NCBI GenBank assembly: GCA_017506865.1 | Contig: JAFCMP010000045.1 | Location: forward strand, 124,001 to 188,000 | Reading direction: 5' to 3' | DNA length: 64,000 nucleotides | From: Tribonema minus | Taxonomy: Eukaryota > Sar > Xanthophyceae > Tribonematales > Tribonemataceae | Shown here: positions 4,806-63,193 of the stretch, piece by piece | How positions within the stretch are numbered: position 1 is the stretch's first letter | Layout of the letters: every line of letters begins with the position of its first letter | Notes under the pieces: model-generated | Database searches by the model: none | What the model was told of the DNA's origin: nothing | What the model saw: only the letters and a program-made list of their open reading frames with translations | Translations under genes and position numbers: made by a program

Positions 4806-7800
4806 ATGCATTTTGCAGCACCGGCAGCAGCAGCAGCAGCAGCAGCGGAGGAGCCAAGTGAGGCGCCGACCGAATTCAATCAGGAGCGCTTTGATTTTGT
4901 TGTGGAGCAGTTGCGGCAAAAGATGCTGGCTGTGATGAAGTGGAAACAGGTGGGGGGGCCAGACCCCAGGACGCTACTGGAGAAGCGCCAGGGTGCGGTG
5001 TGGGAGTGCGAAAGCGCCATCTACAAAGTAAGAGCAACTGGCAAAAGCGGTCAAGCACTTCATGTAATCGAAACAGTAGCATCAATGATCAAAGTGAAGG
5101 TTGAACCACCGTTCACAACTAGGCTTCTCAAACGACTGTGCCTAAGCGGTCGCCAATTTTGATTGAACTGATTGATCAACCAATCGAGGCGTGCTTCGCT
5201 GCAAACACTGTCGGTGTTCCGTCGGTCATTCAGTTACACATTGGCCTGCAATCGGCCTGCACACTGCGGCTTATGGATGTCAGCCTCCGTAGTGCCAGAA
5301 GTAATGTGCTCGATGGAGCCCACAACATGTCTATGCACTTGTTACGCCATTCGGTCCAGTCTCGGTTCGCTGCGATGAGAGTCGATCGATTCGAGTAGGT
5401 ATTGACCGTAACCAATCCATCCACGTCCGCCGGGAGGCCTAACGCAAGCACCTTGAGCTCATCCTCTTGGGCTGCAGGCCTGCCGACACTGGTCACAAGC
5501 CCCACACCCGTGGGTTTGAGTTAGGGTTAGAGGTGGGTAGGGATAGGGTTAGGGTTACAGTTGAGCCACCTGCGACAACGGGTCACGCCGCCAAGGCATC
5601 GTGCCTTGCGCTTCTTGAGCAAAGGCCCAGAGCAGAGCTCTGCGCATGTAGGAGGCCAGCTGAACTGTCAGTGCTAACCTTTCGTTTGAGCGTGCGGCGC
5701 ATGGCGAAGAGGTAAGCGATCCTCGCAGACACGCGGCCATTTTGGACCATGTGGGGGCACTTGATGTGTGAGCATTGGGTAAGCAGGCATACCAAGGCGA
5801 GGGTGACGACTGCAACAAGCACGCAGGATCGTGTGGGGAAACATCCCAGTGCTCATTGGGATTCCCCGGTCCATAGATTACTGCACTTGCCTCTTGACCG
5901 TGGCGCACGCATGGTACACAACGAGAATCGCGCACTGACGGCACGTGCTACGCTCTGCCACGATGCGGCGCTCTGTACTGCTTGCTGCAGTCAACCGCCA
6001 CAACACCGCCTCAGCGGCCGCGCCAGGAGCGCCATGCCATTGCATACACGCCCCGTCTCGCACCTGCTTCTACATGAGACGCTGACGCCCCCACGCAGTG
6101 CACCTCTTACATCATGTACTCCATCAGCAGCAGCGCTCAGGTCTGCAGACCCTGCTGGCACAGGGCCAGAACGCAGAGGTTTACGAACCGCCTGACCCAT
6201 GCAGCACGGCACACCGCCAAACAGTCACCAAGGGCGCTGTCCGCCAACGCAGCCTCAGCGGAGGCCGCACTCAAGAAATGCCCCCCCCCGTTCGATGCGG
6301 AATTCACGTGCGGTTTCTCACTGAGCACTGCCACCGCGCAGACGCTCGCCTGGATGCGCCACGGCAACGAAGACGACGAGCGCCTGGCGGAGCGCGTGCG
6401 GAACTGGCGGCACGCCTATCACAAGCTGCAGCAGGCGCGGGCGCCGGCGGCGTCGGACGCGCTGACGCCATTGAGCTCGGAGGCAACACTCAGCGACCAC
6501 TTGAAGTCTGGTCGGACCCAGGTACGGGCTTGAAGTTGCAGCGGCGCTGCCCCCTGTGTGCCTTCGAATCGTGGCGTCTCAGAGATCACTTGGAGTTCGG
6601 TCGGATACGGGCGCGGCTTCGAGCGAAGGACCTGGCAAGCTTTCAGGTGGCGCTGACACCGTAGAGCGCATTGTTTTCTGTGGTGACGATGGTGGACGTC
6701 GAGCGCTGCAGTGCCGTCCCATCCGCGTTTACAGACCGTCTTCACTTGGCCAGCCTGTACACACCGCAGCCTGTGCGCGTGTGCGTCTCGGCTGGCTCAC
6801 CCCCAGCACCACGTAGCACCAGCGCCACTCGCCGGCGCCGAAGAAGTTCTGGCTCCCGAACACGATGCACCCTGAAGAGCGGTCGACCCCAGATGATTGT
6901 TCCTCGATGTCGTCGTGCACCATAAGACACTGTGCGGCTGAGCGTCAGCGACATTCACTGGTGCAGCAAGCGCACATGTCCGGCTGGGTGCTGTGTCTTG
7001 CCCGCAGCACTTCATGTGCGACCTTCTGCCCAGTCTGCTAGGGACACTAGCTGCACGTACCTCCGCCGATCAGCAGGCCAAGAGGCGCAAGAGGCTTGAT
7101 GACTACAACCCTGTCACCGTCTGATCAGCGTGCGTGCAAATTGTACGCACTGCGCGAGTTCACTGAGCATCGCCCGTTGCACCGCTGCAGGAAGCGCTGG
7201 CGCTGGTGCGCAACGAGCCCACCATCGCCACGGCAGAAGTTGCGGTTCGCCTGGTGACTGCTCTCGTGACTGCCGGCGCGAGAGAGGACGCGTTTGATCT
7301 GGTGCAGGTGCGCTTTGCTTGCTGGCAATGAGAAAATGTAAGGTTCCATGGGGTATGGGCAGCGGAGGGGGGTGCTCTCTGGGACTGCATCTTAGAGCAG
7401 CGCGGGAGATGGGAACAGGAGGGGGCAGGGCATTGGTGCATGCGCTGCGTAATGCAAGGTAGATGCAAGCACGCCACAACGCTGCGGGGCGCCACGCTGC
7501 ATGTACCGCGCGCGACGCGTCTGGCGTCCTGTGAACAGCGCCTGCGTCTAGCGATTGCATAGGGTCACATTGAGTGCGTGCCATTGCGCCGGGGCACCTG
7601 CTGTAAGTGCATGGATGCAACGTTGAGAGCTGTTTCTCCCTGGCCTGTTGCTGTACGCCACGAGAAGCAGATGTCAAGGCGATGAATGCAAGAGAAGACT
7701 GACGCCAGGCGTGCGCTGCAGAGTGTGCGTATTCGGAACTATTTGTTCACCGGCAAGTGTAACTGCCGCAACCGTCAAGCGCGCAGACGGCAATGAGCTT

Positions 7801-19800: not shown

Positions 19801-22800
19801 CTCTCGTATGACGTACAACGAGGCAGTCAATCGCTGCAGCCGCTATCATTCCACAATACGCCAAGCTCAACACGCACGCCAAAAAGACTCTGACTCCTGC
19901 ACCTATGAGTCCTCAAGTCGCACTGCGTACCAACTCCCCCATCCGCCGCACCATGGCCACAGCGCACCGTGCGTCCAAACCGTATGACTCTTGCGCCGAT
20001 GAATCCTCAAAACGCACTTGCATTGCGTACCAACTCCCCATTTGCCGCCCATCGCCACAGCGCGCCGTGCGTCCAAACTGTAGTAGAGGCGGCAGCCGCC
20101 GGCGTCGGTCTCTCGCCCGATCTGCCACCGTGGGCCGCCCAGGAAGTGGCTGCGCACGTGGTCGGGGCAGCGGCATCAGCGGGTTCGCTACCGCTGTGGG
20201 GCTGCCATCCGGCGGGGCTGCTGAATCTGGCGCACCTGACCAGCACGGTGAGCTCTCTCACGTGGCGGCGGTGGCGCTACCTCACGTCTGCAGTGTGTTT
20301 TTCCTGTGGGAGGAGCTGCGCATGGTGGACAACTGCCAGGCTTGCGCGCGCGCATGTCTATTTGTGTGTGTGTGTGCATGCTCGTGTGTTACTTTGAGCG
20401 CTGCTGCATCATCAGTGCTCAGCGCTGCACGCCCGCTGTGGAGCTGCCGACGCGCAGCGCTTGCGAACCTTTGTGGCACGCACGCGAGCGTCAAGTGGCA
20501 TGTAGGTCGCTGCAATGGCAATGTTGATGATGAGTGCATGATGGCATTTTGGGGGCCTCCCAACTGTCATGGCAGTTGAAGTAGGCCGCCTGCGCGGCAG
20601 CCCATGTTGAGGATCATGGGCGCTACGCACAAGCCTCTGCGGAAATTGCTGTCATAAAGCTGGGCGCATGCCGCAGTAACGCAAGGGGCGGCGTGGCAGC
20701 CACAACTGCGCCAGCAGAGGGTGCCATGACGCAGCGCTTATGAGTATGACTTCACTGCTTAGCTTCATGTACACAATGCTGCCCATGCAGGCGATCTGCA
20801 TCTGAGGCTCGCTTCATTGACCATCGTGCCTGACGTGCGAGGCTGAAAGCAGCAGATGGGTGGAGCAATGCCATCATCTTGTGACGGATTGATACCTTTA
20901 ATGGAGGGCAAAGTTCTCATTGTCTTCGAGTGTGATGACTGGTGTGCTGATGTGACGGTTTTGCTGTGTGATTCCTTCTGCGACAGCCCATGGTGCTGGC
21001 GGCCGTGCGCTGTGTGCTGAGGGACATGGCGCGCGTCACCGACGCGACATCGTCAGGCCCACCATCTTCAACCTCAACATTTGAGCCATCACACAGCGCT
21101 CAAGCAGCGAGGCCGACGCATGACCCCGCCGTGGACCTCATTGTGGTCCTCAGTCTGCACATAGTAAGTTGAGACGACCCGGGTACTTGTGTCGCCCACC
21201 GGAATCAATGCAGAGCCTTGGTGTGCGTGTCAAATTGACAATACTGCGCTGGCGCATGTAGAATCTTATGGCGCCATAAAGTCTAATGTTTGTATTTGTG
21301 ACAATGTTGGTGTGGTTGAGTCGTCATGTATGGCCTCTCGCGTTATGCGATTGTGAGTACATGACTATCACCAGCCACTTGGTGTTACTGCAGCGGTGCG
21401 TCGCGGAATGGCTAGCGAGGCCCGGGATCACCGCAGCATGCAACACAATCTCCGAAACTGAACAACACCTCAACTGCATTACTTGAAACGTTGAAGTTTT
21501 AGCAGTCACGCGCGACGCACGCCTACAGGCCCGTGCACTGACTGCTAGCGCTGTTTGCCGTGCGCACGCGCAGGACAAGACGTCTCTGCGCAGCGTGCGG
21601 TCCCTTGCGGCCATGCTGCGCACGGATTTCCCGCCCGTGCAGGTGCGCCCGACCGCTATCACAATCCTGCACTAACGAGCTTGTGAGTCTTGTGGCTGGG
21701 TATGAACACACATCTGTCTGTCCCTGTCCTGATCAGCGCTGCACAGTGTGTCATGGGTACTGAGCGCACGGGACATTTGTCTCGAAGGGGGCTGTGCCTT
21801 TGCCTGCCTCTGAGCCACCTGCGCTGCAAGGATTACATTTCCTGCATGTAAGGTTTTGGCCGGGCAACTGTGAAGGCCTGTGACCAAAAAGAGAAGCCCC
21901 GTGTTGCGCGGGCTGTCTCACGGCGCGCGCTGAGAAGGTTGGAGGAGCACTTCACAGCCACACCAGGAGCTGCATAAGATGAAGAAGAGCAATTGATTGA
22001 GATACCCACAAATCGCGGTGCAGCGCGCGTGCTATGCGCCAACGCAAGGCAGATTGCTGGCAGTGGATCAAGAAATGTCCACCATGTAGAAGTGCACTGT
22101 GCACTCCGCGCTCACCTTGGTTAACAGCAATGAAATATGAGGGCACCTGCTCATGTGCGATCTGCATCGAAGCAGGCCTTTCTGTACCATTCTGCAAACA
22201 AGTGCAAATCATGCTAGTGGTACTTTGAAGTATACTGTTCTGCCTGTTGTTCTCCCCATTTTTTGACTGGCAACCGTGTGTCCGATGCGGCCGCTACCAT
22301 CTCAGATGGAGCACTTGTCTTCTGGGTACACCAGCATCCGCGGCGCTGATGGCATGGAGCAGGTGAGCATCTTCTGCCAACTGTAGAGAAAGCACTCCAT
22401 CATATTGCAGTAGGAGCGCAATGGGCATGGTTTTTAATTGCAATGTGTGGTGGAAACCGGCACTGCATAGTGATGCTGCGTAGCACACTCAGGGACATTG
22501 AAAAATGTTGAACGTTACGTTATCGTTTCTTGTCGTTTGGGGTTTTAATGCCATTTTGAGGACGACGAGCAGTGGCTCTGCAAGCAGTGTTATCAACAAA
22601 GCTGGGCGCCAAACAAGCAAATGTATGCACACATGACCAATACAAAGCTATGTTGTAATGCAAATCACCGACTGCTTGTTGAGAACGCCACGTCCTAGCT
22701 TCGAGTTGGGCATGCGTCTAATTTTAAGTTTCACCCTCCGGGCTTACTGGTAATACTCAGCAGTGTTGCTCCGGAAACACAGTATTGGTGTACACGAGTA

Positions 22801-27413: not shown

Positions 27414-27565
27414 GTGCGCCCAGGTGTTGTCGATGCAACGCATCTAGGTACCTGTACGACATTAAATGTTACATTAATGTCGTACAGGTACCTAGATGCG
27501 TTGCATCGTTACATTAATGTCGTACAGGTACCTAGATGCGTTGCATCGACAACACCTGGGCGCAC
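27414..27565. repeat. Perfect 52-bp palindrome arms with a duplicated right arm
   Basis: The left arm 27414–27465 (starting GTGCGCCCAGGTGTTGTCG, ending GTACGACATTAA) is exactly complementary to 27514–27565. The spacer holds an extra partial copy of the right arm (27477–27508). It is wedged between the truncated end of LINE copy A and the next LINE 3' end at 27569. The perfect arms imply a recent origin or continued correction. Confidence 0.9.
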
Positions 27566-27568: not shown

Positions 27569-27822
27569 ACTTGTACTTTTTGTAAATTAATTCTCGCTCA
27601 GGGCGCGAAAAAGCCCAGATGAATGGGATCCAACTTGAAGCTTAAGCTGTGCGGAATCTACACGTTGTTTGACAGCATGCAAGTGTCTCAATGACAACCA
27701 CGGTGCACCCAAGCTGTGACGAAGCCGCTGCCAAATGTCATCTCGAGATCCCCCTAGGCCCCCCTACAAGTACGTCCGACCAGGAGTCCTCGTCCATGTG
27801 CCCCCCCCCCCTGGATTCTGCA
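27569..27822 (-). mobile_element. LINE 3'-end fragment 1
   Basis: About 250 bp of LINE 3' region only. It begins at the terminal GTACTTTTT..ATTAATTCTCGCTC block and carries the shared 'gaagctt.agctgtgcggaatctaca' and the C-rich stretch also seen at 25240 and 29615. It is severely 5'-truncated. Confidence 0.75.
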
Positions 27823-33647: not shown

Positions 33648-33682
<35 letters not shown>

Positions 33683-35151: not shown

Positions 35152-35239
35152 CTGTAGCTCGAATGCAAGCAAATAGTGAAAGTGAAAAATTGACAAGGAC
35201 ACCACTCTACTAAAAACTATTGCAGAGTTGAAGTAGTAA

Positions 35240-35530
35240 CAGAATGGATTAGGGCTCTTCGCGACATCGCGCAGCAGGAACGCCACTGAGGCTCACGTTC
35301 AAGCTGCATTTGGGAGCAGTGTGAAAGGGGGGTGAAGGGGGGGGGGGAGGGGGGAGGGCATTGTGCGTATTGCAGTGGGAGAGATGCTCCTCGGGGACAT
35401 GCAATCAAAAGGGCTTGGTAGCGGTATGTACGGTATGGTGTGTATGGTTTGTTGCACGTCGTATGGCATATGATAACGCCATGGTGCGGCCACGAGGCTC
35501 ACGCTGAAGCTGCACGTGCGAGTATGCGCG
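35240..35530 (-). repeat. Two echoes of the exon Y start with acceptor
   Basis: Minus-strand segments at about 35310–35260 and 35512–35485 each have CAG followed by CTT.A.CGTGAGC and further exon-like sequence. Both lie upstream of exon Y, in its intron, so exon Y is echoed at both edges. Confidence 0.7.
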
Positions 35531-39789: not shown

Positions 39790-40315
39790 GCAGCTGAGCG
39801 AGCATTTGCGCTCGCCACTGTGCGTGCAAGAGGCTGAAGCAGTGCATGGGCATCGAATGAGGAGCGCCGTTGCTTGTTACGAGAGCTTTCATAGCGGGGA
39901 TGGGGGGGGCATGGTGGCTGGCGTGGTGGTGACGGCAAGCCAGGTACCGACGGCACAGCTCACATCGTTCATGGAAGAGATTCGATCAGCCTTCAATGAT
40001 GCAAGCTACAACGACTCGTGGTCAGCTTGCCAGATGCATTGAGATCTCGTCGTGAGGGGTCGAGGCTTTACACCTGGCGTGGGTGTTCACCAGCTGAGAT
40101 CTCCGATTGTTGTCGCAGTTGTGCTGAAAACCAAGCCGATGTAGCCTGGAGACTTCTCTGCCAGGTGCGACAAACAGCGCAGTACCTGCAGCACGAAGTG
40201 CGCTTGGGCATGTCAAGTGATACCACGACGCTTGTGTTCTGCGTCGTGAGCCAGATATGTGTGCGGCACCCAGCTGGGCTGGACCTCACCCACACTCAGT
40301 CTGATGGCACATAAT
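39790..40315 (+). pseudogene. Decayed relative of the SET-like gene, plus strand
   Basis: It parallels 42150–42730 of the intact gene: 'aggctgaagcagtgcat', then VAGVVVTASQVPTAQL (against VAGVLVTARQVPTEQL), and near the end LGMSSDTTTLVFCVVSQICV. The middle of the domain is deleted and the frame is broken. An inverted sister copy abuts it at about 40320. Confidence 0.8.
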
Positions 40316-46301: not shown

Positions 46302-49300
46302 TTAGCGCTTGGAGCCGTACTTGAGGCGCAGCGCAACGTAGAAGAGCGCGCGCCACCCCACGGTGAAGGTGAGCATGACGCCAACGGAGCCCCACCGGTT
46401 CCAGCCGTCGATCTGAGGAAGGGGAGGGGGAGGGGGGGGGGGGGGGGGGGGGGGGGTCAGATGCAGTGCGCCTGTGCTTGAGCATCAAGGCGCCCACTGA
46501 CACTACAAGAGCTAGTTGTCAATGGCATGCACGCTCCGCTTTGTAAAGTGCACACTTGCATGGGCTGCAAATGCGGAGGAGCTGAAACTATTGAATAATG
46601 AAGTCAGCGTCTGCACCATGCCAGCACTGCATGCTTGCTTTGTGAACCACATTCAGCAGGTAAAACCGGGCATCGCTTGCAACCACTACAAAGGTCAACA
46701 CACGTACACTTGCCCTTTTTTGACCTGATGCACGCTCAACTGTATGTTGCAACCAGTCGTGCTACAAGACAAAAAAGGTTATGGCTGATGGTGCGCGCAC
46801 ATGCATGCACTCGCGCTGTAGTCAACAGTGCATGCCGTTTGCCCTTGTTGCCCTGATGTACGCTAAACCTTAGGTTATTTACAAATGATGCCGTCATGCA
46901 AATACAAAGATATCATGGTATTAAAGGTGCGCGCGCATGCACTCACGCTGTAGTCGTTGAGGTGCTGCTGTTTCCACCCAGATGTACACTCAACTGCATG
47001 CTATAATGCTGCAAACACAAAATATCATGCTGTTCAAAGTGACTCACGCTGTAGTCGTCGAGGTACTGCTGCCGCAGATCCGCCTCGCTTGCCGGTAGAA
47101 GGTCCAGGTTCGACTTCATCAGGCCCTGCAGCACACGAGCGTGCAGGAGCATGGTACACGCAAATGAGCACGTGCAGAGCGCACGCCGAGACTGCTTGCC
47201 AGGCAGGCACTTCAAGCCACTCCGATGCTGATTGACCCCCGTGGTAATCCATCTTGCTTGCCAATGATTGAGTGTACAAAGCGCTCTGTCGCATATTGAG
47301 TGTCCAAAGCGCTCTGTCGCATGTTCAATCCCCAGGCGCTCGTCTACATCAGTATTTTATCTCACTCACTTGCCAGTGACTGACTGTTCAAGAGGCTACA
47401 AATTCATGAAGAATATGTCATCAATACAACGTCTCAACCATGTGCGCCCCACGTGGCCTAACAGCAGCAGCGCCTGGCCTGTGGCGTGTGGCTGCACTGA
47501 GACATGCCACTAGCAAGTGTCAGCTTGGCTCTGCTCCCTATGTGCTATAATCATCACATACACCGCATCGGTCAGGAGTCTTCTTCACCCTTCACAAGCC
47601 CCGTTGCAACAGTTAAATTTAAGGTGGTTGCCAGTGCGTGCGCACAATACACCCACGAGCAGCTTTCATCATCTGAAACATCAGCATCAGCAACCGAATT
47701 GCCGCAGGCTGGCTGGCCTGCCTGCTGCCACCCGTGCCTCGTGTGGCAAAGTGCGCAACCCATTCTCACAAATGGCGGCACCCCTACTCATGCACTGCTG
47801 ACACAGCAATCACATCATTCGATCCAGCGCCTTCTCACCTCGAATGGGTAGCGGAACATGCTGATGTAGTTAAGCCAGATCCAGCCGCGCGGTATCTGGC
47901 TGGCGGGGATGAAGAAGCCGCTGAATAGGAACTGTGAAGGCACGAGTGCAGAAAGCAACAAATAAGTAGAGTTAGAGCCTCGGCCAACCACAGGAGCTGC
48001 GGAGTTATGACCTCAGCAGCCCTCTGTTTGCAGAGGTTGCAGGAAAGCTAGTCGGTGCCGCGTGCGTGTGAAACAAGAGGCTCTGCAAAAGCACGACGAA
48101 CGCGTGACAGAAAGCGACTTGAGCGCACGGCCAGTGCGCCGCACGCAGCCCCTCGGCGCCACGAACATTATATGACGCCACTATAAAGCTGAGCGCTGCT
48201 CACCATCAAGGCGAGCACTGCAGTGCCGACGCTGTTGCCCGCAAGTGCGTCCTATATATCGCCACTGTGAAGCTCACTATTAGCGCACATGTCGCCGCTA
48301 CAAAGCTGAGCGCTGCTCACCATGCACCGCGGTGCCCGCGCTGTTGCCCATAAGCGCGTCCGGCGCGATGCTACATTATATCGCCACAGTAAAGCCCACT
48401 ATTAGTGTACATGTCGCCGCTACAAAGCTGAGCGCTGCTCACCATGAAGGCGAGCACTGCGGTGCCCGCGCTGTTGCCCGTGAGCGCGTCCGGCACGATG
48501 CCGGACACGAACGTCGCAAACCCGTTGCCCGCCGTCAGCACGGTGAAGATGAGGATGACCTGGAAGATGAAGTTGGCGTTGTCGCTGGAGAGTCCCACCA
48601 TGAAGAAGGAGATTGAAGTGAAGACGAGCGCCATGGCGAAGAAGAACGGCAGCATGACGACGGAGTTGGCCATGACGAACGAGGAGAGGCGGTAGGCGCC
48701 GCGGCCTTGCTCCCTGCGCGCAGCACGCGGAGCGGCGGATGCGTCAGTAATCAGTGAGTTGCAGGCAGCGCATATGTGAATGAGTGAGTGAGTGAGTGTA
48801 CAGATGAGTCAGCCGAGCAGCATTGCACCTGTTCACACACACAGACATACCGCCAATCCCTGACCATGACAAGCAAAACAAAACAAGACAAACCCCTCAC
48901 TCAATGCAGTGCTACAATGCGTTATCGCACACACCCGCGGGCACACCAAAGGTACTGAGGCCATGTGGTGCGCGAGCGCTGCTGTCTTGCTCCCAGTGTA
49001 CCCTCTGAGAGCCTGGACGTGACGTGGCGTCTCACAAAGCATGCGCCGCCGACTGCAACAGAGATCGGCAGAGCCTCAAGGCCTCGGTCGAGTGGGTCCC
49101 GTGCACGCAACTTCAACCCCTACTGCTGCAGCGTCACCACTTCAAGCCCTACTTGCCGCTTCAAGCCCTACTTGCTTCTTCATCCACTCACCTCGCGAAG
49201 ACGCTGCGCTCGTTGAGGAAGATGGGCAGGGCCTCGAGCGAGGTGAAGATGAAGAACGCCTCCACAAACGCAGAATACCCCGCCAGCTGGCCGATGCCCT

Positions 49301-52300
49301 CATCGCCGCCCTGCATGGATAAATCATCAATGCATCGTTTTAAATCATTACGGTTGGGGTCCGATGCGTTGTGTCAGGGCTAGATGATGTGGGTGTTGGG
49401 TGCGCAGCGCCGACACACTGATGACGCATGAGTGTTGGCTCAGCAACAGACCATGAGCGCAGAGCGCAGTCCCGCTTGACAAAGCGCAGCAGTGCAGCCC
49501 GAGCACGACCTCGGACTATGCCTAACTGCCGCAGTGCAACCGACGCACTAAGCCTGCTACCATCAGCACAACCACCACTAGTAGCGCAGTTCTAGTCGCC
49601 ACTCACTGGAATGTTCCAGAAGACGGACCCCAGGACCAGGCCGATGACGCAGCACAGCGCGATGCGCACAAAGAAGAGCTCCGGCGTGCGCAGGACGTTG
49701 ACAAAGTTGCGGTGCAGCAGGATGCTAGTCTCCGCGAAGAACTGCAGTCGGCGGCAGCGTGCGCACACAGAGAAGCAGCGTCAATGCTCAGCAGGTGCGG
49801 TGGTGTCAGTGCTCAGCTGCGGTGGTGTCAGCGCTCAGGTGCGGTGACGTCGGCGCGCGCAGCGACACAACGCGACGAGTGCCCTCACGCAAAAAAAGAA
49901 AGACGCGGGCGCGTGTCTGCACGTGTGATGCTCCGCAAACTTTCACAGTTGAAGTGGCGAAAGGCGCATGTTGCTGCGCTGTGATGACGACGCGACACGC
50001 GGGATGTGCCCTGTGCATGCGCGGCATTCGGCACAAAGCCGCACGTCTCACGCCACGTGACAGAGCGAGTCCGACTCCCGAGTCCCTCACGGCCGCTCCA
50101 GCAGTGACCCACTCCAAAACCATGCATCATAAGAATGACGGCGCGCACAAGAGCTCACTACAACAGCAGCGATCGCGCGAGCGCTGGCTCAAGTTGCTGG
50201 CAAGAGCGCTGCGGCTCGTAGCGCACAGATTCACACGCACACATTTGATTGGCAAGTCGCAAAGACCAGTTGAGCGCTGACTCACGTTGTTGGCAAAGTG
50301 CTGCGGCTCATGGTGCGTGGACTCCGGCTCGAGGTTGGAGACGCTGCGCTGGCGCGCCTTCTCAATCTCCTTGCGGTGCTCCACGAGCTGCTCCACCGTG
50401 CCCGACTTCTCGTACGAGTCCACAATCTCCAGGAACAGCTCCGAGAGGTTGGCAAACTGCAAGTGGAGAGAGACGAGGCCGCGTTCATGTGAGAATCACA
50501 GAGGGGGGGGGGGGGGGGTATGTATACATGGATATTTGACTTTGACGTGTCCAGGAACAGCTCCTCCGAGAGGTTGGCACGTGAGAGAGAAAACGCCACA
50601 GCGTTCATGTGCAACTCCACGGCGTCTACGGGAGAGTCACAGGTAGGGGGGTCACATGCGTATATTGACGGCTGAGCTGGTTCGTGCGCTGCTAAGGTTG
50701 CGAGCGCATCTGCTCAACATCGTCCTGCTGGCTGGTGTCGCGGATATGCACAATGTCGCAGGCGGCGCGCTCGTGAGTGACCGTCGTTAAATCATGGTCA
50801 CAGCGGTGGCAGAGTCTATTGACTGTTGCCAAACAGGGCTCAAAGCTTACAGCAACAAAAGATCTGCACAATGAGCGGATGTACGCTGCTCGCATCTGCA
50901 CAGCGGCGCAATCATGAACCAGTCTACACAACACCTCCCTCACACAGCCGCAATGGTATGCTACAGGGGAGGTAGGTACAGGTACACAGGGGACCTGTGT
51001 AAAGGGCATGTAGGTATGCTGTACCTACAGGGGTCCTTGCTGAGCGGCGTCATGTGCCTTTCAAGGGGATGATATAGGTACACACTATGTATACGGTAAG
51101 TAAACTAAACTGTACCTGCGGCAGCTGAGCGGTGTCATGTGCCTTTCAGGGGGTTGATACAGAGGGGTACACTGCGTATAGGGTATGTAGGTAGGCTGTA
51201 CCTGAGGCAGGGGGTCCTTGCTGAGCGGCGTCATGTGCGTCGCGAGCGCCGAGGGCGGCCCGTTGTAGACCAGGTGGCCCTTGGACATGAACATAACCTT
51301 GTCAAAGACCTCAAACACGCGCGAACTCGGCTGGTGAATGGTGACGGCGATGGTGCGGTCGCGGCTGCAGATGTCCTTGAGCGTGTCTACGATCTGCAGC
51401 GCGGTGGTGCTGTCGAGGCCGCTGGTGGGCTGCGCACGCGTTGGGGAGTCACCGGGAGTGAGAGGGGGTTGAAGTTAGGGTTGATGTTGTGGGAATGTGA
51501 GCAATGTGTCCTTCAGGGTGTCAACGATCCGCAGCGCGGTGGTGCAGTCGAGGCCGCTGGTGGGCTGCGAGGGGGGGGGGGGGAGAGTCACCGGGACTGT
51601 GAGAGGGGAGTGAAGCTAGGGTTGAAGTTGTGGGTGAGCAATCTGTTGTAGTAGCACGCACGGCGAGTTGCAGATTTGCGACCGTGCGAGGACAACCGGT
51701 CACCGCCGAATGACATCACAGCGTCTTTCTTGCGGTTGGCCGAATGACATCACAGCATCTTTCTTGCGGTTGGCCAATATCGCCTACAACGCCTGCTGCG
51801 CCTCAGCAATGGCAAGCATTGATGCCCGCTGCACCACAGGAGAAAAAAAATCATTTTTTTTTTAAAACAAGACGCAGACAAACTGCTCCTCACAACCAGT
51901 GCCTGTCAACCTCTTAAGAGATACCTCTTGCGGACCGTGAATTTGGAATGTATCACAGAGAGGACCAATGGAGGCAAATACCAGCCCAGGAGTTGTCACC
52001 CTGACCCAAATCCAAATCCTAGCAACCCTAACCCTGATTAGGTACGGTGACTGCTCACCTCATCCAGGAAGATGATGCTGGGCTGGAAGCGGCGGCAGCA
52101 GCGAGCATGAGCACACAAGCAGGAAAGGGGCAGGGGTGGCGTAAGATCTCCGCACGAGAACGAGGCGCGTTTGGTTCAAGTTGAAGTTGGGTGATTGTTT
52201 TTTCATCGTGCACCACATGTGAGATGGTGCGTCTCCAGCCCTTTTCAAAGCATCTTGTAGTGCGCGTGCAGTCCGCTGTGTAAGCTAGACCCAACTCGTG

Positions 52301-55127
52301 AGCTTCAAGCAGAAACCTCTCATCAACGAGGTGCCCCGCACATAATCCTATGCTTCAAGACATATGTTGCAACTCGGTCACACTAAGGGTGGGGGCGGGT
52401 GGCGCGCAGCCTAACCTGCGCAGCGTTCTGTTGCACTTATTGCTCACCTGATGCACAATGTCCACGCCGATGGATACACGTCGTTTTTCGCCGCCCGAGA
52501 CGCCTGCAGGGAGCACAGCAGGAGACGACGCAAACCTCAACATTCAATGTTGCGCGCGCTGTCATCAATCTACATGGCCGGACAAACCCAGCAAGACAGC
52601 ATCAAATGCTTCTGGCACTCATTCGCTGCAGCAGCGATACCGTGGGCCTGAGCGTCCGAAAGCCGTTTCCTCTGCCACTTGCCCCCCCCACATCGCGCCA
52701 GGCGCATCCTGCGCCGCTTGCCCCACCCTCATAACGCCTCGCGTCGCCTGCCCGCCCGCACCCAGCGCGCCCACGCTGGCTCACAACTTCAACACATAGG
52801 TTCAAGCAGCGCAGGGGGACGCACCGCGGTGCCTGTCGTCGCCGCAGATGGTGTCGGCGCACGCCGTGAGCTTGAGCACGCGGATCGTGCACGCGCGCAC
52901 AACCTCAAGTCAACTCAAGTCAAAATTTCAAGTCCAGGTGACGCACCGCGGTGCCTGTCGTCGCCGCAGATGGTGTCGGCGCACGCAGTGAGCTTGAGCG
53001 CACGGATCGTGTCCTCCACGACCTCCCACTTGTCCTTGCGGCTCAGGTTTGGGATGCGCAGCAGCGCGGCGTACTGTGTGCGTAAAGCGGAGGGGGACAG
53101 AAACAGTGGCCATATGGTTATTTCGTTTCACTCTTGCGCCGCTGATTCTTTGGCGTAGGGAACTGGCGCCAGGACCGGCCTGTCATTCACCATTGGTTCA
53201 TGCATGAGTTGGATTGTGAAGTCATGAATTCACTCCCCTCCCCTCACCTGCAGCGTCTCGCGCACGGTGAGCAGCGGGTACAGCGCGTCGTCCTGCATGA
53301 CGTAGCCGGAGAGGCGCTTGAAGTTGGCGGCGACGGGCGCGCCGTTGAGGAGGTACTCGCCGTCCGTCGCGGAGCGCGGGATGCGCGTCGCGAGGATGTC
53401 GAGGAGGGTCGACTTGCCCGCGCCGGACGCGCCCATGATGGCCTGCGGCGGGGGTAGGTAGGGTATCGCAGGTTAGTTTATTAAGGTGGGGGTAGGTATT
53501 GTGCGCGCCCTACCGACTTGCGCGCGCCGGACGCGCCCATGATGGCCTGCGAGCCGGGTAGTTAGGGTATTGAGGGTGTGTAGGTATTGAAGTTGGGTAG
53601 GTATTGAGGGTGAGGGAGTACTGAAATGGACATGTACTCAGCATACATACCACAGCACTTTCTGTGAAGCTGGCAGGTGAGGACAGGTGTTGTGTGTGTG
53701 TGCATGCATGCAAATGCATCACAGCAGTTGGGCAACTGGCAGGAATGTTTGTTGCCTTACGGCAGTCGTTGTGTCAGTTGTATGGAGGTGTGCGTGCGTG
53801 AGCGAGTATGCGGCGAGGACAGGCGCACGGTCGCGGCGACTTGCACTGAGCAAAGTGCTTGCGTCGTTGTGTAGCCGTAGACGCAGCATGCGCGGCAAAA
53901 TTACGCGTTGAGCACCATACATCTCTGATCGCGCTGACAAGTTACTGGCGTAATATAGGCATCAGGTGTGTGGTTGGGTTCCTGATGTTAGTGGTTGTCA
54001 ACAACTGCGCGCTGCACGTGGGCCTATGCACAAAGTTTGATGTATGACCGTTCATGATCGACGGTGAGTGAGCATGTAGCCGGCTGCTGTCATGAGAGCA
54101 CGGGATGTGCGGGACGAGCGCATCACAGCGCCAAGACTTAACGAACGCGCCAGCAACGCCCCCAGACACTATATGATGCACGGGAAAGTGAGTGATTCTA
54201 GGACTTCATTCTGCCGATGATGGAATCTGAGAGTTGTGGCATTTAATTGAGGTGACGCCACACACGCAAGGGTTTACATGAAGTGGTGTGTCTGCAACGC
54301 ACACCAGTATAGTATGAGTACCGTCATGGATGAATGCCGTAGAGCATGCATTATCTACGAGAAAAAAAAGCAGCAGCAGCAGCGCAGCACTAAGTGAAGT
54401 TCGAGGGACCCGACATTGGCGCCAATTCTGGGGTGATGAGGAGTGCACTTACCAGCAGCTGTTTGGGCTTGATGACGAAGTTGACAGGATGAACAATGGT
54501 CTTGTCCTTCATTTCCTGCAGAACATCAAGCACGACACAGGGCAGGGGCATCAGTACTGGGTGTTGCGTGCATACATACGAGCCCTTCGCCTGCGTTGTA
54601 CTTGGGTCAAAAAATTTGCATTTCATTATTTGCAGTCTTTGACACGCGTTGCGGTGGCTGTCTGCAATAGGAATCCTCGCAAGCAACAAAGCAGACGCCC
54701 ACAGAGGATGCGGCAGTACCGACAGGAACAGCATACAAAAAAGTGTTTCACATCAGAACGAAGCTCGGACGCAAATATCTGGTATTTGATCGTGCGACAC
54801 TCGAATGCGATGCAGCGCAGATGTTGCAAGCCATGCCTGCTTGCAATATACAACAATGCGGCCGCACGCTTTCGCTGCATCATGACATACGTCATGACAG
54901 TTCGTCGAAAACATGTCACCACACAAAGTTCACACCTTGCCCTCCTTTATCTTAACCGTGTAAGATAAATCCTTCGCCTCCAGCGTATAGCTGCCGCCCG
55001 CTGCCATCGTATGACTGGAGAAGGCTGGTGCAGTGCCGTCGAGAGGCGCGCCTCCCAGCTCGACATCTTTCATCGCTGCATCTGACGCAACAGGTTCGGC
55101 AGCAGGTGCTGCTTCGACGGCCGCCAT
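46302..55127 (-). CDS. ABCG-family half-transporter, complete, 14 exons, 620 residues
   Basis: This is an ATP-driven membrane half-transporter that must dimerise; the substrate is unknown. Exons, right to left: 55127–54936, 54515–54453, 53442–53248, 53073–52947, 52503–52448, 52082–52059, 51429–51202, 50456–50286, 49741–49607, 49310–49192, 48713–48443, 47931–47839, 47125–47048 and 46412–46302 (stop TAA). All phases agree. The nucleotide-binding domain comes first: Walker [10 protein letters not shown] (residues 89–97), Q-loop YVMQDD (Q135), signature VSGGEKRR (194–201), Walker B IIFLDE (D218, E219), D-loop SGLDS and H-loop IHQPSS (H251). The membrane domain follows from about 365, with ABCG-typical [16 protein letters not shown] and [17 protein letters not shown]. 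The order (ATPase then membrane) and length fit the G subfamily. Eight exon edges have intronic echoes. The start is the first ATG, preceding an acidic Ala-rich leader. Confidence 0.95.
46423..46457 (-). other. Long C run (minus strand) before the last ABCG exon
   Basis: More than 20 G residues on the plus strand read as a C homopolymer on the transcribed strand. It ends in ccttcctcag directly before the exon starting at 46412, so it serves as the polypyrimidine tract. Confidence 0.75.
46795..47065 (-). repeat. Two echoes of the ABCG exon 13 end with donor
   Basis: 'cactcacgctgtagtcg' marks the true exon end (YLDDYS, then GTGAGT) at 47048. It recurs at about 46949 as 'cactcacgctgtagtcgttgagg' and at about 46808 as 'cactcgcgctgtagtc'. 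Both echoes lie downstream in the intron. The first keeps a perfect donor, and the second reads GCGAGT. Confidence 0.8.
48185..48480 (-). repeat. Two echoes of the ABCG exon 11 end with donor
   Basis: 'agctgagcgctgctcacca', then 'gcactgcggtgcccgcgctg' spans the true junction at 48443. It recurs at about 48189–48250 and 48309–48372 in the downstream intron. Each copy includes roughly 50 bases of exon and the GTGAGC donor. The units also share the intron words 'atatcgccac..t.aagc.cactatta'. Confidence 0.9.
50176..50320 (-). repeat. Echo of the ABCG exon 8 end
   Basis: 'gcgctgactcacgttgttggcaaagtgctgcggctc' at 50274–50309 is matched by 'gcgctggctcaagttgctgg' onward at 50179–50214. The echo lies downstream, and its donor GT has mutated. 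Confidence 0.65.
50425..50620 (-). repeat. Echo of the ABCG exon 8 start
   Basis: 'tccaggaacagctccgagag', then 'gttggcaaac' at the true exon start recurs as 'tccaggaacagctcctccga', then 'gaggttggca' at 50551–50580. Matching intron words 'gagagag..acg.c.c.gcgttcatgtg' follow in both. The echo lies upstream of the exon. A 16-base G run (50503–50518) lies between them. Confidence 0.8.
51015..51250 (-). repeat. Two echoes of the ABCG exon 7 end with donor
   Basis: The true junction at 51202 reads 'gctgtacctgaggcag', then 'ggggtccttgctgagcggcg'. Copies at about 51018–51062 and 51108–51150 keep 'ctgtacct', 'ctgagcgg.gtcatgtg' and the minus-strand GTACAG donor. Both sit downstream in the intron. 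Confidence 0.85.
51405..51640 (-). repeat. Echo of the ABCG exon 7 start with acceptor
   Basis: 'gcgcggtggtgctgtcgagg', then 'ccgctggtgggctgc' at 51399–51433 recurs at 51534–51568 with one change. Both copies are followed by 'agtcaccggga.tg.gagaggg'. The echo encodes the D-loop segment [11 protein letters not shown] almost unchanged and carries a GCAG acceptor upstream of the true one. Confidence 0.9.
52015..52040 (+). repeat. Short CCCTAA-like trace
   Basis: 'aatcctagcaaccctaaccctga' in an ABCG intron; a two-unit telomere-like trace only. Confidence 0.5.
52820..52995 (-). repeat. Echo of the ABCG exon 4 end with donor
   Basis: 'gacgcaccgcggtgcctgtc', then 'gtcgccgcagatggtgtcgg' at the true junction (52940–52980) is repeated exactly from about 52828. 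It continues into 'cgcacgccgtgagcttgagc'. The echo is downstream and nearly identical, so it is recent. Confidence 0.9.
53395..53590 (-). repeat. Echo of the ABCG exon 3 start (Walker A) with acceptor
   Basis: 'gacttgcccgcgccggacgc', then 'gcccatgatggcctgcg' (53411–53447) recurs at 53516–53552 with one base changed. Both are followed by 'ggtag.tagggtat.g.agg'. The echo repeats the acceptor and the coding sequence for AIMGASGA upstream of the real exon. Confidence 0.9.
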
Positions 55128-58066: not shown

Positions 58067-61000
58067 TTAGTTGACAAAGTTGCGGACCGTCTGCAGCCAG
58101 CGGATGTACTCCTCCTGCTCCTTGGCGTCGGCGTGCGCGCACACAAACGCCGCGACGTCCTTGCCAACGCCCCTGCGCGCCAACAGCAGCGATCGCACTT
58201 CAGTCACGGCGTCCAGAGCATGCTGAGTAGGTTCGACAATCAATTGACTATCCAGCGTCAGTCCTTGGCGTCGGCGTGCGCGCACACAAACGCCGCAACG
58301 TCCTTGCCAACGCCCCTGCGCGCCAACAACGGTGATCAAACTTCAAGTCACAGCGTCAAGAGCATGCTGAGTAGGTTCAGCAAACAGGTGCTGCGCGACC
58401 TGCCAACGCCCCTGCGCGCCACAACAGCGATCGCACTTCGGTCACAGCATAGAAAGCGTGCGCACACAGAAGCCGTTTGACTACTGTGGATAAGATGGCA
58501 CTGTTTGACGCGTGGCCAATGACTGCGGCAGCGGCGACCACGTTTATTGGTGGAAGGCATCCAACATTACGGCCAACCACACCTGGTTACCTAGAGCTCT
58601 ACAATCTTTTGATTCATTTTCATGAAGAACATACTGGGTACTTCCATCAATCAGGTGCTGTGGTTATCCAGCTGCAGGCGTGCAGCAGCACGGCTCACAG
58701 CCAGCGCGCTGCTGCCAGGCTCTGAATATACTTTGTGTGCGCGCACGCAGGTGCGTGAGCATGCAACAATGGCGCACGCAAACACGTGCGTTGCGACATC
58801 CCTGCCCGCAGGGCCTGCACGCTGCTCACAGGACATGACACGAGTTCATCAGCGCTGACGTTGTGGTGGTGGGTGTGCATGGATGACACCAAGTGATACC
58901 CTCCTGCATACGCTAAGGTGACATGCGGCAACTAAACTGTCTTGTTCGTGGCCTGCTTGCAATGCGCGCTTGCAGTGTACCGCGAAGAAGCGGCCCTCGT
59001 ATGCCAGTTACAGGATCAGCACAGTGTGCTGATAGAACTGCAACCGACAGAGGGCAGAGGGGTCAGTACTGCATGGCAGAAGGTGCCACAGCTACTTAGC
59101 AGTGTGACAGCATTAATGAAAGCTGCACTGCAGCTGAAGCAGCCATTTTGCTTTTTGAAAGTTTCACACACATCCAGATTGGCCAAGCAGAAACCTCGTA
59201 GACGAAACTTTTGTTGAAGTATGTAAATCAATACTTGAATTTGCATAATCATTCCTGTTACTTGCTAAAATCCAATTCGGCACCGAGACATGATTCAGCA
59301 CCGAGAAAGAGGGCAGTAGTCCGCCTCTGCCCTGCAGGTGTTCGGCGCCCCCTTGGCACACTGCGTGCTTCAGCCTTGCAAATACAACTTGGTGGCCTAC
59401 ACGCCACGACTGGTTGATGCAGTTACCACGTGCTTGAGTGCCAGGAAGAGAAGAAACTGTTCCGCGGTGCACTGCAACATTACAGACAGGAATCTCGGAG
59501 TGTTTTCTGATGACTTTATCGCTGCTCAATGCGCGTGCGGAGTGAGCCTGGCGAGCAGTCGATGGAAACGAATCAATATGGTAGAGCTCTAGGTGAGACG
59601 GTGTGGTTAGCCGTCAAATTGAATGTCTGCCACCAGCAACCGTGGTCGCCGCTGCTGCGGCAATGTCAGACGAGTGTTTTGCACCTTTCGTCGAGGTACT
59701 TGTGGAACGCTATCTGCAGCGTCTCGTCCAGCTCCTCGAAAGCGGGGCCCCTGTAGATGTCGTTGTAGTGCGCGTCGTCAGACCCGGGCGTGCCCCTAGG
59801 GTTGAACTGCACCTCCTGAATGTAGAACTGCAGCATGGGCGCGCGGGGGGGGGGGGGGCGGGGGGGCGCGATGAGTGAGATCAAGAGGCGCTGCATGCGC
59901 CACAAAACCTAAACCTAACCGTAACCCTCACCCTCACCCTAACCCTAAGGCTTCGAGGGACGCGCTGCAGACCAAGCTGCAACAGCTGGCGGGTCGCAAC
60001 GGCGGCCGGTGCTGTCCGGTGCCGCCGTCCGCTGCGCATCGATTGACACAACTAGTTCAGCTGTAAGTTACACATGTTGTCCGGCGCTCTTGCCGGCATG
60101 GCGCCGCACTGCGGCCGCGCTGGCGCTTGCAAAGTACGCTGCTGCGGACGCGGCGAGCGCAGCAGACGCCGCCGAGCGCTGCTGCGGGTATGATGAGCGC
60201 TGCTGCGGGCGCGACGAGCGCTGCTGCAGGCGCGGCGCGCGCAGCAGACGCCACCGAGCGCTGCTGCGCGTGCGATGAGCGCTGCTGCGTGAGCGCGCTG
60301 CAGGCCAGCAGGCACTTGCGCGCGCTGGGTTCACGTTCGCAGAGGAAGACGAAGCGTATAATGGTGGAGTGGAAATCGCTGCATGCAGCGCTGCGTTGCT
60401 GGTCACGCCTGAAACCGGCGACCGTGTGTGGAGTATGGAAAACGCTGCAACTTCAACTTGTGACTTCGACTTGCGCCACACCGCACAGCCGATCCGCTTT
60501 GCTCGATCCCGTGGCATGTGCGATACCACCATGGCCATGAGTACTCTGCGAGCAAGTGCTTCTAGGCTGAGCGCAACTGCTTGCCTTGACTGGGGTCAGA
60601 GGGTTAGGGTAAGGGGAGAGCATTAGGGTTAGCCCCCAACCCTGACCGTTCCACGCGTCTTGCTGATTGTACATTGAATCTCTCGTACAGAGACTTTGGA
60701 GTGTATGCCCCAGATGCAAAGCTGGCCGTGCGTACGGGGCGTGAGCACAGCCCTGGCCCTAGCCCTAACCCTCATTTCTTACGTCCACTGTAGTTGAGCG
60801 GTGCCATCACAAACCGTCGCCCGTGCACAGGCGCTTCACGTTTGGTCATTCTGACTGCTACTGACTGCTGCTGAAGCGCACAAGATTTGATGGGGGCTCA
60901 GTTCTGCCAGCTACCTCTCTCCGTGGCAGGGCAGCTAAGGCCGTACTTCAAGCACTTGAAGAAGTGCATGTCAAGTGCTTGTCGGCGGTAGTCTCGGTGC

Positions 61001-63193
61001 CGGGATGTCATTATGAACGCGGCTTGTTGAACTTGCACTTGACAACTGTCGTTGCCACGACGCACAGTCTCCGGAACGCTGCTCACACTTGCCGTATATC
61101 GGCATAGTAGCGTGCGTTAGGCTTGCTGGGCAGTACGTGTGCTGGCAGCGTATAGGTTATTCTAGGGTGACAAGGGCCCCTCTGGAGAGTTAAACTCAAA
61201 CTTCAACTGTTGACCTCAACTTACCCATCCTGGAAAGTTAAAGTTGAATGCAAACTTCAACTATAATCCTCAACTTACAGTAACGCCCTTGAACACAAAC
61301 TTCAAGTATCAACATCAACACGCAGAATAAAGCAGCAGCGTTCAGCACAGCGCAGGTACGCTGTACAGAACAGGGTTTCCGCCCCTCGAGTGGAAGTAAA
61401 TCAAGTACAAGGCTGTGGGCACTCACGTCGTCAGCGGCGTGGCAGTCGAAGACCAGGGATTTACCATCCTTCTCGACGGTTACCTCGACCTGGAACGCTG
61501 CCGCCATAGAGAAACAGAGCGCGACAAGCAGCGGGTTCACAAGAGTCAGAATTGAGTCGGCAAACTGGGCAATCAACAAATAGCGTGCACAAGTCATTGA
61601 CGTATCCGCAAAGCCGCCCTTACTGTAGTTTGTCAGGCGAGAGAGACGCGCGGGGGGGGCGAGGGCATTAAGGGATTTTGCATGTTGCGCAGCTGATCAC
61701 AACAGAATTGCGCGCACACTGTAATGTTGAAATTGTGCATGCACCTGCCTCAAGTACATAGGGTCTCCGCCCCTCAAGCGGAGTAGTAAACAAATTGCAT
61801 ACATTGATCACCTGGAGCGCAAAGTACAGTACATGCTGGCTGGAAGTGCCGTGCGGCATGGAGCAATGCAGACAAGCCAGGTCACTTCATCAAATAGTTG
61901 ATTCAATGCCCCACTCATGCCCACGACAGTGCCTGCCCGCCATTCCACCAGGCGGGAAAACATCAGCCGAAGGCAGGAGGACACTACGCATGCCTGTCTG
62001 TGGACGGCGCTCTCAGTCACAAGCTCTCAGCCTGTGCACATGCTTGCAGTAAAAGGAATCACAGAATACAAATACTTCAAGTACTTGAAGTATGCGTTTC
62101 AACGCTGTCAGAGGCCAGCTCTCAACCTGAGCAGAAATTCACGGCAACTTCATCCATCCTTATATGAAGTATGCTTATATGATACCTAACATACCTGTTC
62201 TTTCTGCTGTCAGTTGCCAGCTCTCAATCATTGCACACATGTCGAAAGCCGCACAATACCTGATGTAAACATTCATTCCCACTCCTGTTGCCTCCTCCTC
62301 ATAACGACGAGGAAACTCACATGTGTGCCTGACCATGAACAGTGCTGTCAGGAAGGCATGCTGTCAAAATGTGCGTGCACACACAGCCGCCAATCGCTTC
62401 TCCGTATATGCGGACATATGTACCCATTCCGGTGTCGTCCTTAACTAGACATGCATTTATGTGCCCCCATACCTATGCATGCATACCTGTGTCCCCCTTA
62501 CTTGTTCATACCTGCCTTTGTCGCGCCCTTAGCTATACATTAATACCTGTGCCCCCGTCCTAGCTATGCATACATACATGTGTGCCCCTCTATGCATGTG
62601 TACCTGTGTCCCCGCTTAGCTATATACATGCATACCTGTGTCCCCCTCAGCCCCCTTCGCTCCACACACATACTTGCTCCTGTTTCCTCCTTCCCCTCCT
62701 CCCCGTCCTCCTCGTCGTACTCCCCCTCAGCTATACACACATGCCTGTGTCCCCCTTAGCCATACATACATACCTGTTTCCCCCTCCTCCTCTTCCTCAT
62801 CCTCCTCATCCCTCATCCCCATCGTGCCCCCCTCAGCTATACTTCGAAGTACATACATGCCCCCTGAGCTATGCATACATACCTGTTTCCCCCTCCTCCT
62901 CATCCCCCTCGTGCCCCCCCTCAGCTATACATATATGCCTGTGTGTCCCTCTTAGCCCCCTTAGCTATATATACATACCTGTTTCCTCCACACCCCCGTT
63001 GTGCTCGCCTTCACCTACACAGGCAGATCTGTGTCCCCCTTAGCCCCCTTAGCTATACATGCATGAAATCAAATCAAAAGATCGTATACATACCTGTTCC
63101 CCCCTCCTCCTCCTCCTCCTCGTCCTCGTCATCCCCCTCGTGCTCGCCCTCCTCCTCTTCCTCTTCCTCCTCTTCCTCGTCTTCGTCCTCAAC
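58067..63193 (-). CDS. p32 / MAM33-family mitochondrial matrix protein (C1QBP homologue), 5' end not found
   Basis: This is an acidic matrix protein that forms a doughnut-shaped trimer and supports mitochondrial translation and respiration in other eukaryotes. Exons, right to left: 63193–63094, 61497–61427, 59827–59685 and 58172–58067 (stop TAA). They join in phase into 139 residues. First comes an acidic loop (VEDEDEEEEEEEEEEGEHEG), then FQVEVTVEKDGKSLVFDCHA (human p32 has FVVEVIKND...LVLDCH), then FYIQEVQF and YRGPAFEELDETLQIAFHKY. It ends LDERGVGKDVAAFVCAHADA and KEQEEYIRWLQTVRNFVN. The order acidic loop, strand pair, helix, C-terminal helix matches the family. The N-terminal third, with the presequence and first strands, should lie right of 63193 but was not found. 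The acidic exon and the last exon have intronic echoes. Confidence 0.9.
58100..58455 (-). repeat. Two echoes of the p32 last-exon start with acceptor
   Basis: 'tccttgccaacgcccctgcg', then 'cgccaaca' at the true acceptor (exon from 58172) recurs at about 58301–58328. A shorter version (cctgccaacgcccctgcgcgcc) is at 58399–58420. The first echo also repeats about 45 bases of exon sequence ('ggcgtcggcgtgcgcgcaca'). Both lie upstream in the intron; the period is about 130 bp. Confidence 0.9.
58514..58622 (-). repeat. Dispersed ~105-bp repeat, full inverted copy
   Basis: The minus strand reads 'aatgaatcaaaagattgtag', then 'agctctaggtaaccaggtgt' and 'gccttccaccaataaacgtg'. It sits in a p32 intron. 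Confidence 0.8.
59563..59668 (+). repeat. Dispersed ~105-bp repeat, full copy beside a p32 exon
   Basis: It runs from 'gatggaaacgaatcaat' through 'gtagagctctaggtgaga' and 'ggttagccgtcaaattgaat' to 'cgccgctgctgcggcaatg'. It ends only 17 bases from the donor of the p32 exon that ends at 59685. Confidence 0.8.
59845..59873 (-). other. C run (minus strand) before a p32 exon
   Basis: The plus-strand G run is a C-rich polypyrimidine tract on the transcribed strand, 18 bases before the acceptor of the exon starting at 59827. Confidence 0.65.
59905..59950 (+). repeat. Interstitial CCCTAA-like array
   Basis: Units run aaacctaaacctaaccgtaa, then ccctcaccctcaccctaacc. This is the longest telomere-like array in the window, in a p32 intron. 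Smaller traces occur at 60598–60635, 60747–60770 and 63268–63296. Confidence 0.75.
60140..60305. repeat. Minisatellite of 'gagcgctgctgc' units
   Basis: Six or so units of 24–30 bp, each with GCGCTGCTGCG(G/T)G(C/T) and a variable purine-rich linker, lie in a p32 intron. Confidence 0.75.
61175..61325. repeat. Three tandem units in a p32 intron
   Basis: 'aaacttcaactgttgacctc', 'aaacttcaactataatcctc' and 'aaacttcaagtatcaacatc' recur about every 54 bp, just left of the exon ending at 61427. They are noncoding. Confidence 0.65.
62440..63096 (-). repeat. Array of more than ten echoes of the p32 acidic-exon end and donor
   Basis: The true junction at 63094 reads, on the minus strand, GGGGGGAACAG then GTATGTATACG. 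To its left 'catacctgt(g/t)tcccc' recurs at about 62486, 62545, 62600, 62632, 62741, 62772, 62879, 62935, 62977 and 63020, most with an intact minus-strand CAG|GTATG. The copies at 62772–62830 and 62879–62920 also keep the GAG/GAT-rich acidic coding sequence. The intron words 'agctatacatacat' are carried along in each unit. Unit length is 30–110 bp. Confidence 0.85.

Follow-up and report, generated by a model that had tools for sequence, protein, structure and literature searches.

Exon edges in the nuclear genome of the xanthophyte Tribonema minus are, on the most likely reading of our data, preferred sites of tandem duplications that leave copies of the exon end and its splice site, here called echoes, in the neighboring intron. 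A copy in the edge's own intron (local alignment score ≥32) was found at 63 of 402 predicted exon edges from 22 genes in 314 kb of sequence. These 63 edges were 31 donors and 32 acceptors, and they were spread over 15 of the 22 genes. Taken as a whole, the observations are probably best explained by recurrent duplications that were tolerated, decay neutrally, and retain a residual preference for splice junctions. At no step does this explanation need a function of the echoes.

The window, a 64,000-bp stretch of T. minus (Xanthophyceae) nuclear DNA, corresponds to C45:124001–188000 in an assembly of 158 Mb and 554 contigs. A plasmid search with one stretch of the window as query gave no match. 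The full sample consisted of 114 kb of contig C45 that include the window, plus 200 kb of contig C445 (1,973,627 bases), the latter region being chosen because of its paralog of the ABCG transporter gene in the window. A self-trained gene finder, for which the ABCG gene was the sole starting point, was applied to these 314 kb, and most gene models, including the gene with exons Y and Z and the large gene, are models of this gene finder only. The translated ABCG model (620 aa) was 100% identical to a deposited T. minus protein on a 413,553-base contig, which shows that its exon model is exact. Pfam matches were obtained for five of ten submitted predicted proteins (one of the five below its cut-off), and p32 was identified as MAM33 (E = 1.7e-45).

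Genes predicted with fewer than four exons were not used. During curation, 17 predicted exons were removed as copies of a longer or equally long exon of the same gene, and a further eight exons and one predicted gene were removed as repeat-like or extraneous. Of the 22 remaining genes, one (B4) still includes exons belonging to an upstream gene. A smaller set of 16 genes leaves out six predicted genes that look transposon-like and are echo-free. Because this omission was decided after their counts had been seen, the edge and placement tests were repeated with all 22 genes. The 16-gene set was used for the depth profile, the scoring of splice sites and codon positions, flank similarity, divergence, the simulations, the intron-length classes, the comparison of donor with acceptor regions, the control with ends of coding sequences and one placement test.

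Fifteen edges in four genes of the window had been listed as echoed in the preliminary description. Each edge (40 bp of exon plus 15 bp of intron) was compared with its own intron and with 300 random intron stretches of equal length, drawn from a pool that also contained the tested introns. Thirteen edges were clearly echoed, with scores of 45–101 and none of the 300 random stretches equally good (Table 1). The large-gene exon starting at 20061 is very probably echoed as well (score 54; one of 300 random stretches was as good, and that one may be its own intron), whereas the exon end at 6521 is a weak case with a score of only 31 and two of 300 random stretches as good. The copy numbers given earlier stood in part. 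Two copies each were recovered at the ABCG exon 11 end, the p32 last exon and the end of exon Y, two at the ABCG exon 7 end and at the start of exon Y with a weak second copy (score 33) in each, and two at the start of exon Z plus a weak third (score 31). At a score of at least 28, the ABCG exon 13 end has one copy instead of two, and the p32 acidic exon six instead of more than ten. All eight repeat loci found in the ABCG gene sit at junctions.

Table 1 Exon-edge echoes and the ABCG gene in the 64,000-bp window of Tribonema minus. Positions refer to the window.
Feature	Position	Strand	Details
Weak possible echo of large-gene exon end	6577..6610 (approximate)	+	Exon 6342-6521; 23/28, offset 89
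Echo of large-gene exon start	19891..19984	+	Exon 20061-20247; 34/37, AG kept
Two echoes of exon Z start	34056-34109, 34354-34450	-	Exon about 33623-33881; AG kept in both
Two echoes of exon Y end + donor	34610-34718, 34860-34938	-	GT kept in both
Echo of exon Y start	35254..35306	-	Copy of 35103-35154; exon about 35047-35159; 33/35
Second, weaker echo of exon Y start	near 35517	-	Score 33
ABCG transporter gene	46302..55127	-	14 exons; 8/26 junctions with echoes
Echo of ABCG exon 13 end + donor	46897..46970	-	Exon 47048-47125; 28/30; one copy with score ≥28
Two echoes of ABCG exon 11 end + donor	48169..48371	-	Exon 48443-48713; offsets about 239 and 117-130
Echo of ABCG exon 8 end	50179..50217	-	34/38; donor GT lost
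Echo of ABCG exon 8 start	50550..50611	-	Exon 50286-50456; 27/27
Two echoes of ABCG exon 7 end + donor	50983..51142	-	Offsets 175 and 85; scores 74 and 33
Echo of ABCG exon 7 start	51507..51646	-	Exon 51202-51429; 82% over 144 columns; 43/45, AG kept
Echo of ABCG exon 4 end + donor	52815..52889	-	Copy of 52937-53011; exon 4 = 52947-53073; 94.7% over 75 bp; 49/50 in edge test, GT kept
ABCG exon 3	53248..53442	-	Start echoed: offset 104, score 74, 45/47, AG kept
Echo of ABCG exon 3 start + intron end	53514..53606	-	Copy of 53410-53501; score 91, 81%
Two echoes of p32/MAM33 last-exon start	58262..58461	-	Exon 58067-58172; 52/53 with AG kept; 35/37
Degenerate tandem array, p32 acidic-exon end + donor	62436..63064	-	Exon 63094-63193; six copies with score ≥28

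The nearest copies mostly lie at offsets of 85–214 bp (5th–95th percentile; median 142 bp), with a median exon portion of 36 bp. The median ratio of best-aligned length to offset was 0.87 at junctions and 1.01 in introns. Of 83 copies selected on the exon, 67 also had local similarity in the intron flank, compared to 1 of 83 for random intron, and a stricter anchored test found similarity in only 44 of 83 copies with a null of 0. The copies are direct and adjacent, their length approximates their spacing and whole blocks including the intron flank were copied, as is characteristic of tandem genomic duplication. Hence, the echoes are tandem duplications which usually include the intron flank. 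A young case, at C445:1465949–1466102, is a clean head-to-tail duplication of 77 bp that spans a donor. An apparent sudden loss of similarity 6–12 bp into the intron, seen in an ungapped profile, was largely due to indels, as gapped alignment restored the similarity in the 67 copies mentioned above. No motif was seen at the exon-side breakpoints, for which base counts were judged by eye. The duplicated units were longer at loci straddling a junction than at intron-only loci (median 143 vs 93 bp; KS, P = 0.002), a difference that may or may not be caused by duplication geometry.

Local direct repeats are common throughout the window. In the 314 kb, we counted 403 local repeats (score ≥36, within 1,500 bp) compared to 0 in simulated Markov-3 sequence of equal length, which excludes chance in bulk. 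Exon-edge 40-mers recurred in their own intron in 53 of 356 cases (score ≥36, all 22 genes) and in introns of other genes in 0 of 356 (0 of 293 in the 16-gene set), so these exon-edge probes gave no sign of introner-like sharing among the introns of different genes. Control 40-mers taken from 200 bp inside introns recurred in 15 of 302 cases (all 22 genes). In the 16-gene set, recurrence of exon 40-mers dropped to 8 of 101 on the donor side and 1 of 105 on the acceptor side at a depth of 40–80 bp and to 0 of 130 at 80–120 bp. This fall-off with depth indicates that the copies are mainly copies of exon edges. The earlier statement that copies span real junctions on both strands thus extends to 15 of the 22 genes modeled on C45 and C445, and to two further contigs, chosen for their repeated profile segments in a Pfam search. 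On C157, a Helicase_C exon has two extra copies of its end (the donor lies outside the model), and on C246 a kinesin exon end has one echo including its GT.

Across the sample, 63 repeat loci straddle a junction, 20 are confined to introns, two are mixed, 10 lie in transposon-like genes and 27 are intergenic, showing that tandem repeats occur outside genes too. When each locus was represented by its best pair under strict rules, the 16-gene set contained 49 straddling, 26 intron and 8 other loci, and all 22 genes contained 49, 32 and 12, respectively. In the placement ratios, which exclude the other loci, the straddling share amounted to 60–65% under strict rules and 60–76% across rules. Random tolerated placement yielded 20.2% straddling loci (SD 4.2) in the 16-gene set, with 0 of 2000 replicates reaching the observed 65%, and 20.6% in all 22 genes. 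The excess persisted when the odds were doubled for slower decay (P = 1.9e-8 for 16 genes and P = 1.1e-6 for 22 genes), but weakened to only P = 0.006 when they were quadrupled, corresponding to a 4-fold survival advantage (16-gene set only). A subset printed as homology-verified, a label that for several genes means a protein reading only, comprised 32 straddling, 15 intron and 4 other loci and carries no weight in our conclusion. The probe profile of the 16-gene set peaked at the edge, with 18% recurrence vs 4.8% deep in introns (score ≥36), and the edge/deep ratio rose from 3.8 at a score of at least 36 to 7.7 at a score of at least 60. We conclude that the junction excess over duplications elsewhere in introns, on which the preliminary description had made its reading depend, is real in this sample and amounts to about 3–4-fold beyond survivorship.

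Near-identical pairs lying wholly within introns showed no gradient toward the junction (16-gene set), and the bias is therefore mainly visible in blocks that contain exon sequence. Ends of coding sequences provide a control free of splicing. None of 15 stop-codon edges reached a score of 30, which with so few edges is no more than suggestive, and 2 of 11 start edges did; we think that both of these are mis-called internal exons.

The exon parts of the copies are on average 92% identical to the exon, with mismatches of 6.3% at the first, 5.0% at the second and 13.0% at the third codon position. If both copies were functional, positions 1 and 2 should have changed far less than seen. Splice sites were scored on 83 of 86 copies, as three fell short of the junction. 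The donor GT was intact in 43 of 50 copies (42.4 expected under neutral decay) and the acceptor AG in 28 of 33 (27.8 expected). Since retention equals the neutral expectation, nothing points to selection in favor of extra sites or against them. Pooled divergence was 6.6% in exon and 15.2% in intron for exon-selected pairs (42 of 52 pairs), and 8.2% and 11.3% for intron-selected pairs (22 of 33 pairs). The two selections bracket the intron:exon contrast of around 2:1 that is expected if one copy is constrained. The contrast was stronger for indels, which per 100 bp numbered 0.27 in exon vs 3.1 in intron for exon-selected pairs and 0.58 vs 1.2 for intron-selected pairs. Exon constraint keeps junction pairs recognizable about twice as long, and part of their apparent specialness is survivorship. 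Altogether, the copies look like harmless, neutrally decaying relics.

Introns with echoes are longer than those without (median 890 vs 663 bp). Echoed edges were found at 0 of 44 edges of introns below 300 bp, at 3 of 48 between 300 and 500 bp and at 60 of 238 in introns of at least 500 bp. About 11% of the intron sequence lies between a junction and its most distant detected echo. Both the concentration in long introns and this share support the earlier claim that the copies enlarge introns.

The paralogous ABCG genes in the window and on C445 carry their echoes mostly at different edges. In the window gene, these are the starts of exons 3, 7 and 8 and the ends of exons 4, 7, 8, 11 and 13, and in the C445 gene (exon numbers by our correspondence) the starts of exons 4 and 11 and the ends of exons 3, 4, 7 and 12. 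At the two edges echoed in both paralogs, the ends of exons 4 and 7, each echo is nearest to its own exon; for exon 4, echo and own exon share 57/60 and 49/54 positions, compared to 46/52 between the two echoes. Hence, these echoes arose, or were refreshed, after the paralogs had separated. Some copies combine an exon part of 95–99% identity with intron flanks of roughly 60–70% (by eye), a contrast exceeding 2:1. They occur at the ABCG exon 4 end, the exon 3 end of the C445 paralog and the last exon of a JmjC gene, and from their sequence may have been refreshed by gene conversion from the exon. At the exon 3 end of the C445 paralog (1383404), the first echo is about 98% identical to the exon over 40 bp, by eye over some 70 bp, and its intron flanks look about 65–70% identical, which hints at gene conversion.

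A junction excess could also arise with no junction preference if duplication were uniform, exon-internal duplications were purged and straddling ones stayed recognizable longer. The roughly 2:1 divergence contrast is real, and near-junction rates look alike when exon-edge copies at ≥60 are compared with intron copies at about 40 as being of matched age, a similarity based on our own interpolation. However, when duplications were simulated forward at a uniform rate and left to decay neutrally, only 19–25% of loci straddled a junction in three settings and the probe profile was roughly flat (edge/deep ratio about 0.5–1.0), far from the observed shares and ratios, and 10 of the 20 intron-only loci, the p32 acidic-exon array among them, lie within 30 bp of an exon. 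This account was thus already disfavored, and we regard it as unlikely. An early age-matched reading, according to which there was no junction excess, was dropped, as the uniform model predicts a flat profile in the simulations and in the placement tests. Alternatively, the duplications might predate intron growth, when a block of 100–200 bp could hardly have missed a junction, and the introns might have grown later through these and other insertions. The intron-length classes and the longer echo-bearing introns fit such a scenario, but the placement test already uses the intron room that existed before each duplication, as we argue, and echo stretches of only about 11% of intron sequence would demand much further growth since duplications of modest divergence. 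Short-intron geometry therefore appears distinctly improbable as the source of the excess.

Maintenance of echoes by selection as alternative or decoy splice sites might be read from the third-position mismatch excess (13.0% vs 5–6%) and from the majority of GT and AG that are kept. Yet the excess, 2.3-fold with a hand-computed interval of 1.8–2.95, is close to the up to 2-fold value predicted if the copy is neutral and the real exon drifts synonymously, and splice-site retention does not go beyond neutral decay. Moreover, whole codons are not preferred in the unit lengths (nearest offsets leave remainders of 0, 1 and 2 after division by three in 16, 19 and 28 cases), and echo sequences are absent from both deposited ABCG proteins. 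A decoy role, as the preliminary description had envisaged, is thus not borne out, and we consider functional echoes very unlikely. Gene conversion from exon to echo could likewise sustain old echoes and create the apparent excess. The near-identical exon parts next to strongly diverged intron flanks (by eye) speak for it, as do 7 of 17 copies with an exon identity of at least 97% that lack anchored intron similarity, yet 15 of the 17 are locally similar and the pooled divergence matches the neutral 2:1 contrast; we deem it improbable that conversion accounts for the excess. Tandem duplication is also an ingredient of intron creation by AGGT-bearing exon duplication (the Rogers model) and of introners with target-site duplications. 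Donor and acceptor regions were compared within each of 161 introns and were similar in 0 of them (score ≥28); this lack of relationship shows that the echoes did not arise as Rogers-type intron gains. In most cases, the copy includes intron sequence and sits within an existing intron, implying that the intron existed before the duplication. For this sample, we regard such relics as already refuted and give them hardly any credence. Tandem copies are a classic assembly error, but the average divergence between copy and exon is 8%, and 15 of 22 modeled genes have copies, which makes an artefact extremely unlikely.

Under the preferred explanation of tolerated, neutrally decaying duplications, nuclear DNA blocks of roughly 80–210 bp would recurrently be duplicated head to tail. 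At a donor, duplication of a block with one splice junction would place a second exon end and intron start directly behind the first pair, and the mirrored arrangement would result at an acceptor. A normal mRNA would still be obtained by splicing from the outermost junction, and the inner copy would be tolerated as part of a longer intron. Later, coding constraint continues to act on the real exon, whereas the copy and the intron flanks on both sides drift neutrally, and the exon part therefore stays recognizable for longest, as the measured divergences show. Arrays with up to four detected copies may have been built by repeated rounds. Beyond this filter, blocks containing a junction are favored about 3–4-fold over random placement combined with slower decay, as the statistics of this sample show. 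It is conceivable, and we suggest it only tentatively, that in this lineage a process linked to exons, transcription or nucleosome-sized units makes splice junctions hot spots for tandem duplication of 100–200 bp, and that this is a major route of intron growth. Any tie of the duplications to nucleosome size or replication is speculation. Copied exon edges can serve as dated markers of intron growth with the exon as a fixed reference, and they offer a rare handle on intron lengthening by routes other than transposon insertion. A truly mutational junction bias would tie the duplication of DNA to exon structure.

Tandem splice sites and pseudo-exons feature a duplicated GT or AG close to the real site. 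Echoes differ from these in lying tens to hundreds of bases away and in including exon segments of tens of bases, and their sequences, unlike tandem sites, give no apparent sign of use. Passages of PMC2891723 describe Drosophila cases of intron gain by local segment duplication, and in a potato case an existing intron–exon structure was duplicated. The Rogers model is represented by passages in PMC4974935 and PMC2891723 and by a reference-list entry in PMC3488318. The Drosophila and potato cases share with echoes a head-to-tail local duplication that carries splice signals and is partly removed by splicing. In those cases, the duplication creates a new intron, whereas the T. minus duplications each span a single junction of an intron already present, create no new one and, unlike there, recur at about 15% of the tested exon edges. 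A passage of PMC4974935 also mentions, in passing, an 83-bp tandem duplication within an intron. Such duplications within introns, as that passage presents them, resemble echoes in mutation type and size and in leaving the intron/exon structure unchanged, but those of T. minus concentrate at splice junctions. Among the literature matches listed, with most subscription papers outside their coverage, none described junction-straddling duplications that recur at introns already present.

Echoes are a trap for gene predictors, since ab initio gene finding calls them as false extra exons and thus yields proteins with short repeated peptides, and caution is warranted when the T. minus genome is annotated. 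On C45 at about 195–217 kb (window coordinates 71–93 kb), the gene finder fused an enolase-like gene (by eye) with upstream exons, and 10 of the 40 edges of the fused model have echoes.

Other repeats were also observed in the window. A dispersed family with a motif like 'cttttt(a)ttaattctcgctcagggcgcgaaaa', probably a transposable element, occurs at 25050–25209, 27569–27744 and 29436–29590 among other places, and further members were seen by eye around 37.7, 40.8 and 44.1 kb and on C445. At 15099–16335, a predicted intron contains minisatellite-like arrays of AGTACTCG-type units that are partly mutually inverted (by eye). Repeated units of 40–50 bp at 27413–27560 and 28505–28602, with inverted copies by eye, could form a long hairpin. 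By eye, an intronless open frame and a diverged, apparently degenerate copy about 2.4 kb upstream of it occupy 39785–40293 and about 41634–42774, and the two are joined by local repeat pairs.
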